DNA of 54,037 bases from Nocardioides sp. Lineage in GTDB: Bacteria > Actinomycetota > Actinomycetes > Propionibacteriales > Nocardioidaceae. The DNA lies in assembly GCF_030655615.1 (NCBI RefSeq), contig NZ_JAURVJ010000156.1, positions 1 through 54,037 on the forward strand. The letters run 5' to 3'. The notes below the pieces were generated by a model. It saw only the letters and a list, made by a program, of their open reading frames with translations. It had not been told where the DNA came from and searched no databases. How positions within the stretch are numbered: the stretch's first letter is position 1; every line of letters starts with the position of its first letter. A program made the translations under genes and the position numbers. Below, piece by piece: positions 35,397 to 40,725 of the stretch.

Positions 35397-36794
35397 GTGG
35401 AAACATCACGAGAGCCAGCACAGGTCACTCCGGACCTCCGTGTCAGGGCCAAGAACATCGATGCCGTCCTGGTCGGCACCCGTATCAAGCTCGCCCGTCA
35501 GCGGGCCGGGCTGACCCAAGGTGAGGCCGCCGGCGACCACATGTCGACGGCCTACATCTCCCGGATCGAGGCGGGCCAACGGCGCGCCAGCGCCGATCTC
35601 CTGGTCGCCCTGGCCAACCGGCTGGACTGCGACCCCGAGGAGCTCCTGGCCCCCGACGAGGACGTCGCCGCACGAGAACACTTCGACCGGCTGACCCTCG
35701 AGCTCGACTACGCCGAGCTCGACCTGCGCACCGGCCAGGCCGAGGAAGCGCTGACCCGCGTCGACGCTCTGCTCGCCGAGTCCGACGTCCCGACGTCGCT
35801 GACGGTCAAGGCGCGCTTCGTCCGGGGGCAGGCACTGGAGTCGATCGGTCAGCTCACCACGGCGATCAAGACGTTCGAGGACCTGCTCACGCTGAGCACC
35901 GACGCGCTCTTCCGCATCCGGGCGCTCCTCGCGCTGAGCCGGTGCTACCGCGAGGAGGGTGACCTGGCCCGCGCCTGCGAGATCGGCGAGCGTGCCTCGG
36001 TGCTCGTCAGCGCAGCCGACCTCGAGGGCAGCGCCGAGGGCATCCAGCTCGCGGTGACCGTCGCCGCCGCCCACTTCGAGCGGGGCGACGTCAACTTCGC
36101 CCTGCGGATGTGCGAGCGGGCGGTCGAGAGCGCCGAGCGTCTCGAGTCGCCGATGGCCCGGGCCTCGGCCTACTGGAACAGCAGCATCGTCCACCAGCGC
36201 CAGGGCAACATCACCGACGCCCTCCCGCTGGCCCACAAGGCGGTCGTCCTGCTCGAGCAGACGCACGACGCCCGCAGCATGGCCCGGCTGCGCAACCAGC
36301 TCGGTCTCCTGCAGCTGCAGATGGATCCGCCGCAGGTTGACGAGTCGCTCGCCAACCTCGAGCGAGCGCGGGTCGACATGGAGTTCAACGACGCCAGCAC
36401 GGTCGACCTCGGGCGCAACCAGCTCGGTCGCGCGCGGTGTCGGCTGCTCATCGGTGATGCCGAGGAGGCCGAGCGCCTGGCGGAGGACTGCTTCCAGAGC
36501 ATGCGTGAGACCAGCCTGATGTTGAGCGCCGAGGCGCTCACGGTGCTGGGTCAGATCGCCGCGACGCGCGGTGAGGTCGACACAGCAGTGGGCAGGTTTC
36601 AGCGTGCTCTGGTCGTGCTCGAGGGTGTCGGCGCCGATCGCGAAGCGGCTCAGCTCTGGTTCGAGCTGGCCAACCTGCTCCGCGAGTACGGGGCTGTCGA
36701 CCAGGCGATGGAGGCGTTCCGCAAGGCGGGCGCCTCGACCGGTCTGACCCCATCGTCGATCCCGACGGCGCGAGTCGCGCCGACCATGGGCTAG
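35397..36794 (+). CDS. XRE-family HTH regulator with C-terminal TPR array (RRNPP-like)
   Basis: A 465-residue protein. The XRE helix-turn-helix occupies about residues 24-85 (TRIKLARQRAGLTQGEAAG, YISRIEAGQRRAS). The rest, about 95-455, is a chain of some nine TPR-like helical repeats (RFVRGQALESIGQLTTAIKT, SRCYREEGDLARACEIGERA, NSSIVHQRQGNITDALPLAH, QIAATRGEVDTAVGRFQRAL). This HTH + TPR layout is that of RRNPP-type peptide receptors (PlcR, NprR, Rgg-like). A gene for a 44-residue signal-peptide-bearing peptide converges on its 3' end 21 bp away. The GTG at 35397 is chosen from the CATACT box; 75 upstream in-frame codons are promoter DNA. Confidence 0.88.
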   Translation: METSREPAQVTPDLRVRAKNIDAVLVGTRIKLARQRAGLTQGEAAGDHMSTAYISRIEAGQRRASADLLVALANRLDCDPEELLAPDEDVAAREHFDRLTLELDYAELDLRTGQAEEALTRVDALLAESDVPTSLTVKARFVRGQALESIGQLTTAIKTFEDLLTLSTDALFRIRALLALSRCYREEGDLARACEIGERASVLVSAADLEGSAEGIQLAVTVAAAHFERGDVNFALRMCERAVESAERLESPMARASAYWNSSIVHQRQGNITDALPLAHKAVVLLEQTHDARSMARLRNQLGLLQLQMDPPQVDESLANLERARVDMEFNDASTVDLGRNQLGRARCRLLIGDAEEAERLAEDCFQSMRETSLMLSAEALTVLGQIAATRGEVDTAVGRFQRALVVLEGVGADREAAQLWFELANLLREYGAVDQAMEAFRKAGASTGLTPSSIPTARVAPTMG

Positions 36795-36811
36795 GAAAGG
36801 AGATTTCCTAG
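36791..36811. terminator. Perfect 8-bp hairpin between the convergent regulator and peptide genes
   Basis: CTAGGAAA (36791-36798) and TTTCCTAG (36804-36811) flank a GGAGA loop. The left arm contains the regulator's TAG stop. It is probably a bidirectional terminator; being AT-richer than other hairpins here, a protein-binding site is also possible. Confidence 0.6.
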
Positions 36812-36815
36812 CGGG

Positions 36816-36950
36816 TCAGCAGCACCAGCTGGAGCCGCCCACGTTCTTGGCCGGGGCCTTCGCCTCCGTCGCGGTACCCGTCGACACAGCTCCTCCGACG
36901 AGGGCCGTGGCGAGCAGGGTCGAGACGAGGAGGGCGCGGAACTTCGACAT
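36816..36950 (-). CDS. Small secreted peptide, candidate pheromone precursor (44 aa)
   Basis: A 44-codon ORF reading MSKFRALLVSTLLATALVGG, then AVSTGTATEAKAPAKNVGG and ending SSWCC. It has a textbook Sec signal peptide: basic n-region, hydrophobic core LLVSTLLATALVGGAV, and possible cleavage after GTA or TEA. GGGAG lies at good spacing (about 7 nt) before the ATG, unlike its leaderless neighbours. The mature C-terminus would be a short peptide with Trp and a terminal Cys-Cys. It converges on the XRE-TPR gene, 21 bp from its stop. In RRNPP systems such pre-peptides lie next to their receptor and are processed outside the cell; that role here is inference. Confidence 0.75.
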   Translation of the reverse strand: MSKFRALLVSTLLATALVGGAVSTGTATEAKAPAKNVGGSSWCC

Positions 36951-36967
36951 GGGTTTCTCCCTTGGTG

Positions 36968-36991
36968 AGGCTGGCCGCTTTTGGCCTGCCT
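36968..36991. promoter_or_regulatory. Imperfect inverted repeat in the peptide gene's leader
   Basis: AGGCTGGCC-GCTTTT-GGCCTGCCT: 9-nt arms with one mismatch, 18-41 nt upstream of the peptide ATG. It could form a 5' UTR hairpin or bind a regulator. Confidence 0.45.
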
Positions 36992-37008
36992 GAGTGGTCG
37001 TTACATTC

Positions 37009-37014
37009 TGTCAA
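37009..37014 (-). promoter_or_regulatory. TTGACA-like -35 element of the peptide gene
   Basis: TTGACA on the minus strand, about 59 nt before the peptide ATG. No convincing -10 follows at 17 nt, so promoter class is uncertain. Confidence 0.35.
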
Positions 37015-37022
37015 AGAAAATG

Positions 37023-37040
37023 GCAAACGTCCCCGTTTGC
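37023..37040. promoter_or_regulatory. Perfect palindrome between peptide and membrane-protein genes
   Basis: GCAAACG-TCCC-CGTTTGC, 7+7 bp, placed between the divergent starts at 36950 (minus) and 37063 (plus), 8 bp from the TTGACA element. It is the best candidate binding site for the XRE-TPR regulator. Confidence 0.6.
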
Positions 37041-37062
37041 GGACGAGAATATGAGGCTTTTT

Positions 37063-37890
37063 ATGGAAAGGACGTTCTCGGCGCATACTTCCGACGCCTC
37101 ATCTGCCTCATCTGTCCCAACAGTCACGTCTGCCCCACTTTCGTCTAGACGACTCGACGTCTGCCCCCGGGAACGCCCGTTCGGGCAGGACTTCCTGACG
37201 ACCTCTCCGTCGCCGACCCTGGGTCTCGACGGCAGCTACGAGGTGCCGATCCGGCGCCGTTCCCGCCCCGGCCCGGTCCGGCGCCCGGGGTCGCGTCGCC
37301 GACGGCAACGGCCGAGCGCCGCCGGCGCGGCGAGGCTCGTCGCGACTGCCGCCTTCGTGGCCGTGGGGATCACGAGCACGGCCGCCCTCGTGCAGACGGT
37401 CGAGGGCCACGGATCGCCCGCAACGACGACGAGCCCGGCGGTCCCGCCGACCGGTGGCTTTGCCGTACCGGCCGACCGGATGGACGAGACGTTGCTCGAG
37501 CTGCTCGACCCCAGCACGGGCGCGTCGGCACAGGCCGTGCCGCGCGGCGAGCAGACCCGCAGCCTCCGCGAGCCGGGCCGGCTCCGTCGCGCCGTCCAGA
37601 CCGGCGCCGTCCTGCTGGCGACCCCGGGCGGTCCGGCGCTGGTCCGGGTGGAGGTACGCCGGGCCACCGCCTCGGAGTGCGTCCTCGCCTCGTGCGTCGA
37701 GGTGGTCCGGGCGACGGGCGCGGCGCCCGCCCCGCCCTCGGTCACCGCGACCGTCGTGAGTGCTGACGTCGAGGTGCGGGCCCAGGCCTGGGCCGGGCCT
37801 CACTCCGACGGTCCGCCGACCCTCGCCCGCCCGCCGCTCACGGCCGAGGCGCTCGTACGGCTGGCCGGCGACCCGGTCTGGCGACGATGA
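37063..37890 (+). CDS. Single-pass membrane protein of unknown function
   Basis: A 275-residue protein: a Ser-rich, then very basic cytosolic part (about 1-90, RRRSRPGPVRRPGSRRRRQR), one membrane segment (about 92-115, AARLVATAAFVAVGITSTAA), and a 160-residue exported region with two cysteines four residues apart in SECVLASCVEVV. The exported part is partly beta-like; no family recognised. The ATG at 37063 has GAGG at 6-nt spacing; ATG 37051 is an alternative. It is divergent from the small-peptide gene and shares the palindrome at 37023-37040, so it may be co-regulated. Confidence 0.65.
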   Translation: MERTFSAHTSDASSASSVPTVTSAPLSSRRLDVCPRERPFGQDFLTTSPSPTLGLDGSYEVPIRRRSRPGPVRRPGSRRRRQRPSAAGAARLVATAAFVAVGITSTAALVQTVEGHGSPATTTSPAVPPTGGFAVPADRMDETLLELLDPSTGASAQAVPRGEQTRSLREPGRLRRAVQTGAVLLATPGGPALVRVEVRRATASECVLASCVEVVRATGAAPAPPSVTATVVSADVEVRAQAWAGPHSDGPPTLARPPLTAEALVRLAGDPVWRR

Positions 37891-37987: not shown

Positions 37988-40255
<2,268 letters not shown>

Positions 40256-40684
40256 TCAGCGGGACGTGCAGGCGGGGCAGGTGCCCCAGTAGATGACCTC
40301 GGCCTCGTCGATGACGAAGCCGTGGGAGTCGGAGGCGTCGAGGCACGGCGCCTCGCCGACGGCGCAGTCGACGTCGCCGACGACGCCGCACGAGCGGCAC
40401 ACCACGTGGTGGTGGTTGTCGCCGACGCGGGTCTCGTAGCGCGCGACCGAGCCGGACGGCTGGATGCGGCGCAGGATGCCGGCCTCGGTGAGCGCCCTCA
40501 GGACGTCGTAGACGGCCTGGTGGGAGACGACGCCGATGTCGGCGCGGACCGCCTCGAGCACTGCGTCGGTCTCGGCGTGCGGTCGGGCGGTGACGGCCTC
40601 GAGCACGGCCAGCCGGGGGCGGGTCACCCGGAGCCCGGCCTCGCGCAGGAGCCGCGCGGGTTCGGTCGCGGGAGTGGTGGGCAC
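40256..40684 (-). CDS. furA: Fur-family regulator (FurA-like)
   Basis: A 142-residue Fur-family metal-dependent repressor. The winged helix spans about residues 10-75 ([38 protein letters not shown]); the dimerisation half holds the metal-binding [12 protein letters not shown] and a second CPAC, forming the structural Cys4 zinc site. Position directly before katG identifies it as a FurA-type regulator of oxidative stress. The GTG at 40684 is preferred over a TTG at 40720, because the latter lies inside the operator palindrome. Confidence 0.92.
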
Positions 40685-40702
40685 GTCATCGACCCTGCCC
40701 CC

Positions 40703-40725
40703 TTTTCTTGAACTAGTCAAGAAAA
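40703..40725. promoter_or_regulatory. FurA operator of furA-katG
   Basis: TTTTCTTGA (40703-40711) and TCAAGAAAA (40717-40725) form a perfect 9+9 bp inverted repeat around 5 bp, 18 bp upstream of the furA GTG. Its size, AT-richness and place match Fur-family autoregulatory sites. Confidence 0.8.

Follow-up and report, generated by a model that had tools for sequence, protein, structure and literature searches.

Locus organization

The window analysed here is a stretch of 54,037 nucleotides from Nocardioides sp. (NCBI RefSeq assembly GCF_030655615.1, contig NZ_JAURVJ010000156.1, positions 1-54,037). It carries the gene for a regulator in which an XRE-type helix-turn-helix (HTH) domain is followed by tetratricopeptide repeats (TPRs) and, convergent with this gene, a micro-ORF (open reading frame) whose 44-residue product, MSKF...SSWCC, starts like a signal peptide and ends in Cys-Cys (CC). 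Stop codon to stop codon, the two are separated by 21 bp (36795-36815). The signal peptide was assessed by hydropathy and by eye. The initial annotation, made from the sequence alone, had described an XRE HTH with about nine TPR-like repeats and a convergent 44-codon frame with this ending at this distance, and both descriptions are borne out: Pfam places HTH_3 at residues 30-83, together with HTH_31 and many TPR models, the AlphaFold model has nine TPR helix pairs, and the frame is present as described, with a signal peptide by the assessment just given. The pair at this locus is real, and is one case of a recurring receptor–peptide pair. The features of the locus are:

35397-36794, plus strand: receptor (regulator) gene, GTG start, 465 amino acids, XRE HTH and nine TPR pairs (ORF translation, Pfam, AlphaFold model)
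35475-35651, plus strand: HTH DNA-binding domain, residues about 27-85 (Pfam HTH_3; helices at 23-84 in the model)
35655-36737, plus strand: TPR superhelix, residues 87-447, nine helix pairs (AlphaFold model; conservation against the outgroup, N261 in helix A5 and R293 in helix A6)
36790-36812, no strand assigned: inverted repeat between the two convergent genes, arms 9 bp, loop 5 bp, possibly a shared terminator; a long T run is absent here
36816-36950, minus strand: secreted-type propeptide gene, 44 amino acids, ATG start, MSKFRALLVSTLLATALVGGAVSTGTATEAKAPAKNVGGSSWCC (ORF; conserved beside homologous receptors)
36819-36827, minus strand: Trp-Cys-Cys codons, the conserved C-terminal end of the propeptide (ending-blind CC count; count of W before CC)
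36996-37015, minus strand: TTTGACAGAATGTAACGACC, the site that best fits the palindromic promoter motif found across the family (a moderate match, 10.6 bits)
37005-37028, minus strand: GTTTGCCATTTTCTTTGACAGAAT, a promoter block conserved in the clade and a proposed operator (window aligned with five relatives; genome searches)
37023-37040, no strand assigned: perfect palindrome GCAAACG-N4-CGTTTGC, of which only the arm adjoining the conserved block is kept

Recurrence of the receptor–peptide pair

Among the first 31 loci, scanned without any requirement on the ending, a CC-ending, signal-peptide-like ORF was found at 26. A second ending-blind scan, for ATG-started micro-ORFs with a hydrophobic N-terminal stretch, covered 151 full-length homologous receptors (15 of 166 rows lacked the full-length domain and were dropped); a CC-ending micro-ORF lies within 800 bp of 106 of them, the next commonest final dipeptide being found at four. 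This set is deduplicated by identical core only, L167 being a second copy of the L021 locus. In a control of 507 kb lying more than 1.5 kb from receptors, six of 212 micro-ORFs end in CC, and five of these go with a different receptor in the same cluster; the sixth (L104) is the only one available to a receptor that has none closer. None of the 16 signal-peptide-like micro-ORFs in the rest of the window ends in CC, and the genome's second regulator of the family (C154) has a divergent peptide of its own, with the end HTWCC.

In a larger set, a script found a CC ORF at 136 of 195 unique receptors. By score band, presence runs from 83/96 for the closest receptors through 17/24, 27/39, 8/21 and 1/3 to 0/12 in the outgroup, which consists of distant HTH-TPR regulators scoring below 150, eight of them from family f20. 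The pairing is also seen from the side of the peptide: a peptide profile searched against 149 genomes gave 30 loci, 17 of which match through the CC end, and a receptor piece is found at 16 of these, the 17th (G156) lying 1.7 kb from a receptor. The 14 loci without a receptor piece comprise G156 and 13 partial matches that cover the signal-peptide part only or end before the CC. Thus the expectation that XRE-TPR genes of relatives would be adjoined by a signal-peptide micro-ORF passed strongly, in both directions of search.

Counts differ with the start-codon and hydropathy rules of the scripts (120 of 151 in one, 136 of 195 in another), which miss some likely cases (L046, L104, L246, L217-L219 and L221) and include some doubtful ones (L123, L286 and the second ORF at L294). 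The peptides of alignment A2 were preselected for a CC end, so that its invariant CC is there by selection; the unbiased figures are 26/31 and 106/151. As judged from sequence comparison, HTH-TPR regulators and Sec-type propeptides ending in Cys-Cys travel together through the Actinomycetes.

Taxonomic distribution

Within the genus, 141 of 147 genomes match the regulator at E 0.001, the weaker matches being mostly to the HTH alone, and 68 of 147 do so at E 1e-20 or better, so the regulator is patchy in the genus. Named loci are mostly from Nocardioides, Marmoricola, Pimelobacter and other Nocardioidaceae, with one from a Streptosporangiaceae metagenome-assembled genome and one from Actinorhabdospora; N. 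rubriscoriae (83%) is among the nearest named relatives, which put the window within Nocardioides in a broad sense. A profile match at E 1e-20 was obtained in 85 of 394 genomes drawn across the class and in 32 of 130 in a draw at family level. From the class-wide matches, 45 receptors of other families scoring at least 195 (21 plus 24) were inspected, and 31 of them, one doubtful (L286), have a micro-ORF ending in CC with zero to two further residues. These 31 span eight further families of the class (f10, f15, f18, f21, f22, f27, f28 and f39). On plasmid pSMg1-1 of Streptomyces sp. Mg1, a 71-residue 'hypothetical protein' ending IPLCC comes directly after the receptor, and in Nonomuraea gerenzanensis the peptide is divergent and ends GDAGCC. 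The system extends through the class Actinomycetes, with nine families including this one, and is not local to one genome.

Receptors L213, L214, L226 and L268-L272, all of family f18, have clear scores, and no CC micro-ORF was found near them; in such f18 receptors the peptide may have been lost, or another one may be used. An unverified contig labelled as a faecal phage (L260 10835-11911, MT836207.1), probably bacterial DNA, has at its end a partial homologue, 43% identical to the regulator.

Receptor structure and conservation

The AlphaFold model of the receptor has a mean pLDDT (predicted local distance difference test score) of 89.6. We compared conservation between the 136 peptide-linked receptors (effective number 80.6) and the outgroup, calling a position linked-specific if at least 70% of the former and at most 25% of the latter share the residue. 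There are 28 such positions in the TPR domain, of which residues 214-293 (helices A4 to A6) account for 15; the remainder are in A1, A2, B3, A7-A9 and the end. N261 and R293 are present in 94% and 93%, respectively, of linked receptors by weight, and each in 0/12 of the outgroup. On this pattern of conservation, receptors linked to the peptide have a distinct set of conserved residues, more than half of which fall in the central helices of the TPR domain, and a bound peptide would be expected in the central groove of the superhelix, in the region of helices A4 to A6. Receptor cysteines were considered as partners of the peptide tail and rejected, as neither C183 (Cys in 76% of the weighted linked set) nor C239 (68%) is invariant. 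Raw signals of co-variation between receptor columns and the residue preceding CC were seen in helices A4 and A5 (F227, A224, V265) and were set aside, since they did not stand out in a phylogenetic pairs test with seven supported pairs, which placed A224 within the top 15 of 397 columns and F227 and V265 outside it.

In a profile search of the PDB, two designed TPR proteins come first and PlcR follows as the best natural protein (E 2e-15), its match covering the HTH and some of the TPR domain. Together with the Pfam matches and the model, this bears out the domain plan for which the initial annotation had called the locus possibly RRNPP-like. Pfam and NCBIfam scans of the regulator at E up to 1 returned no RRNPP-specific model. 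The NsdA family of TPR-like Streptomyces regulators (NF053720) matches part of the protein, over the TPRs, at 46.2 bits, below the curated cut-off of 75, and no protein of the genome matches NF053720 above that cut-off. Some relatives consist of TPRs with no HTH detected: L158 2837-6561 and L298 stand beside a CC peptide, and some relatives are in tandem, while the script found no CC peptide at L073/L156 and L083. These TPR-only relatives are reminiscent of the Rap/NprR split.

Gene order and evolution of the peptide

The 195 receptors have 151 peptide ORFs between them, 112 convergent downstream, 33 divergent upstream, and four and two on the receptor strand. On a quick FastTree tree with many open forks and long branches, peptide-bearing receptors changed orientation at least 12 times; with two doubtful ORFs removed and a third corrected, the figure is at least 10. 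The same tree gives at least 29 changes in the presence of the peptide and 14 between W and any other residue in the position ahead of CC. With so many changes of orientation and presence, the pair has often been kept despite changes in gene order, and also often lost or missed. W precedes CC in 81 of 129 CC-ending copies, and the terminal Cys codons are TGC in 253 cases and TGT in five.

The script assigns more than one CC ORF (two or three) to 11 receptors, and the C-termini within such sets are mostly near-identical. Duplicated pheromone propeptides are known, the passages seen of PMC11343458 concerning repeats inside one propeptide. Receptors are also found in arrays: in Pimelobacter simplex and a relative (L079 3066-8774, L080), four tandem receptors have a single CC peptide, placed at one end of the array.

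Promoter of the peptide gene

The initial annotation had pointed to a perfect palindrome in the promoter region of the peptide gene as the site of regulation. The palindrome at 37023-37040 is indeed perfect, and the genome has no further copy at zero or one mismatch. An alignment of the window with the five relatives nearest to it shows conservation of the right-arm side (GAC-N-TTTGCC) and, past that side, of the TTTGACAGAAT stretch, but not of the left arm, so we rejected the perfect palindrome as the operator in that form. Palindromes as a class are nonetheless enriched: with arms of at least 7 and a spacer of 0-12, within 200 bp, they occur in 64 of 130 peptide promoters, against an average of 15 after block shuffling. 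Taken with the unconserved left arm, this indicates that the feature class is real and the exact palindrome lineage-specific.

A motif search (widths 16-20, two shuffles each) of 97 non-redundant peptide promoters yielded a TTTGnCAnAATnTTGnCAAA-like palindromic motif, with a log-likelihood of 201-227 as compared with 44-57 for shuffled sequences. Of the held-out promoters, 53 of 97 scored above the threshold set at 95% of shuffles, whereas the reversed control gave 8 of 97. At 10.6 bits, the site in the window is slightly over the 99th percentile of the shuffles (10.3). In the window's own clade, the conserved block GTTTGCCNNTTTCTTTGACAGAAT has a single site per genome, at the peptide promoter, in four of the five genomes searched; in the fifth (G078) it was not found at up to three mismatches. 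In another species the element TGACAAAATNTTGTCA was found once at up to two mismatches, again at the peptide promoter, giving one site per genome in five of the six genomes searched.

Proposed function and alternative explanations

We consider it probable that this pair is an RRNPP-like peptide-pheromone circuit of Actinomycetota, in which the signal ends in Cys-Cys and the receptor controls the peptide gene. The propeptide would be exported and processed by signal peptidase, perhaps with help from a second protease. The short C-terminal peptide so released would re-enter the cell via an oligopeptide permease and bind the concave TPR groove near N261 and R293. Binding would alter the grip of the HTH dimer on the element ahead of the peptide gene, and the outcome would be density-dependent feedback on the peptide's own expression. 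One oligopeptide-binding SBP_bac_5 protein was found in the genome, a precondition only for re-import.

Several points weigh against this proposal. The script found no CC ORF at 59 of the 195 receptors, many of them with flanks of over 2 kb, and neither did we see a CC micro-ORF at eight of nine inspected receptors of family f18, at three of five in f39 (positive in 2/5) or at four of six inspected plasmid homologues (L254, L256, L257 and L259). Co-variation between peptide and receptor is not significant once phylogeny is allowed for, in a test of little power (seven supported pairs). Purifying selection on the micro-ORF, the absence of which the initial annotation would have counted against its reading, is weakly visible (pooled pN/pS, the nonsynonymous to synonymous polymorphism ratio, 0.63 in the own clade and 0.76 in a second clade), as is expected if the tail and a general signal-peptide character alone matter. 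Fold comparison (VIA-align) gives Z scores over about 340 residues of 23.7 for NprR and 24.4 for RapF, and eukaryotic LGN, the ubiquitin-ligase subunit APPBP2 and APC subunits score as high or higher, with MalT, like PlcR, also among the high-scoring structures; HTH and TPR folds are common and unrelated TPR proteins match equally, so this comparison cannot separate RRNPP proteins here. The promoter motif overlaps a possible -35 box, TTGACA, so that promoter and operator are inseparable by sequence alone and part of the signal may be promoter. Finally, the initial annotation had the regulator acting on palindrome-linked genes, and the searches of six genomes found no site of the element other than at the peptide gene.

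This last result also speaks for another reading, in which the exported CC peptide is itself an effector, antimicrobial or metal- or thiol-active, and the TPR regulator a dedicated switch sensing some other ligand or a protein partner. The element was seen once per genome, at the peptide gene only, and the two cysteines of the tail might hold a metal ion or pair in a disulfide. We nevertheless hold this unlikely. The peptide is confined to one receptor family, as the reverse search indicates (16 of 17 full-length loci with a receptor piece), residues of the receptor vary with linkage to the peptide as those of a receptor would, and none of the flanking gene families, which were annotated in part, is shared by most receptors (24 of 162 for the commonest).

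The receptor could also sense the unexported precursor inside the cell, in which case the pair would report export capacity or secretion stress and not density. A precursor with a signal peptide, made beside a cytosolic peptide-binding protein, would need no import step, and the genome has a single SBP_bac_5 gene. Under this explanation, which makes the receptor a sensor of export signals, it is difficult to see why the tail is retained through drift of the signal region (the rows are preselected for CC, the ending-blind 106 of 151 being fair support) and why tandem copies retain the tail, and we give it little credence.

The two Cys codons directly before the stop, and the position of one clade amid sulfur-assimilation-like genes, recall the polycysteine attenuators of mycobacteria, leaderless short ORFs with Cys codons that reportedly act in cis on an operon. 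That the micro-ORF is a cysteine-responsive leader peptide of this type, with ribosomes stalling at the Cys codons, is very improbable, and we rejected it on gene order. In 112 of 151 cases the peptide ORF is convergent with the receptor, so that the next gene downstream is on the other strand, which argues against a cis attenuator; in the window itself the micro-ORF does not lie upstream of a gene on its own strand, the next gene downstream being the opposite-strand regulator. Unlike the attenuators, the peptides here look exported, retaining a signal-peptide-like start, end in CC and are mostly convergent or divergent to the regulator, and Rfam has no match between 34500 and 38200.

Lastly, spurious ORFs are abundant in high-GC DNA and the peptide matches no family in Pfam and NCBIfam scans, but a chance ORF beside an ordinary XRE-TPR regulator has next to no prospect of explaining the data, being contradicted by the recurrence, by persistence through rearrangement, by a ribosome-binding stretch that precedes the start codon and reads AGGGAGA in the window and AGGAGA in the five aligned relatives, and by the ending-blind enrichment and the reverse search.

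Returning to the pheromone circuit, one extension, which we put forward as no better than speculative, is that the vicinal thiol pair is read chemically, in an ancient, class-wide system of Actinomycetes parallel to RRNPP, with oxidised, reduced and metal-bound forms differing in uptake or in receptor binding. If so, the Cys-Cys signal would report density and redox (or sulfur or metal) state jointly.

Comparison with known systems

Peptide pheromones with cytosolic receptors have been described for Bacillota. Several RRNPP receptors regulate the promoter of their own pheromone, and PapR of the Bacillus cereus group is a C-terminal pheromone encoded by the gene neighbouring that of its receptor, PlcR. 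To our knowledge no RRNPP pheromone has a Cys-Cys end. The passages seen of PMC9765709 agree with this description of PapR, and present RRNPP/RRNPPA receptors as having a C-terminal TPR superhelix of 5-9 repeats, with an N-terminal HTH in the DNA-binding members. The regulator described here has both, and a small propeptide gene, its product exported to judge by hydropathy, is adjacent to it.

One close parallel is PlcR-PapR, with an HTH and TPR receptor, a small exported propeptide alongside and DNA as the target of the receptor, export and DNA action being predicted in our case. The present system differs in its Actinomycetota host, in its longer TPR domain (nine pairs), in the Cys-Cys end, in having the propeptide gene mostly convergent with rather than after the receptor, and in having the conserved element at the peptide gene only. 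NprR-NprX and Rap-Phr resemble it in the size of the superhelix and in the existence of TPR-only relatives, the former being a likeness of fold that is equalled in score by unrelated TPR proteins. To the NsdA family, the likeness is the partial, below-cut-off TPR match given above.

In the passages seen of PMC10075063 and PMC13220807, Actinomycetota are presented mainly as users of small molecules such as gamma-butyrolactones; those of PMC4748050 mention cyclic or modified peptides and list 'TPR' among the quorum-sensing-related domains of some genera. The open-access literature, to which our search was confined (subscription papers and preprints lying outside its scope), contained no account of such a system in Actinomycetota among the matches listed. 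Our best reading is that the system works like RRNPP. A one-line signature, a signal peptide followed by Cys-Cys-stop beside an HTH-TPR gene, gives 136 pairs in hand and nine families. Such a signature suggests the signal from the sequence, and may open density-controlled behaviour of soil actinomycetes to experiments with synthetic peptides.

Neighbouring genes

A conserved third gene was rejected, since among the flanking families annotated even the commonest is present at only the 24 of 162 receptors noted above. An RNA element at the locus was rejected on the match-free Rfam scan at gathering scores, and PADLOC, run for membership in a defence system, gave generic HTH/TPR and regulator matches only. 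Divergent from the peptide gene, and sharing its promoter region, is a plus-strand gene at 37063-37890 which encodes a membrane-anchored protein by eye, has no Pfam family and is a candidate second target. Beyond it, on the minus strand (37988-40720), is a peroxidase-family gene of 745 amino acids, KatG-like by length, with a FUR-family regulator ahead, an apparent furA-katG pair. In one Nocardioides clade (L100 2547-8585 and relatives) the regulator follows a gene for an EF-Tu-type GTPase that resembles CysN by eye. On the far side of the peptide gene in this clade come genes for a PAS histidine kinase, a DUF1416 protein and a rhodanese, a neighbourhood that resembles sulfur assimilation.

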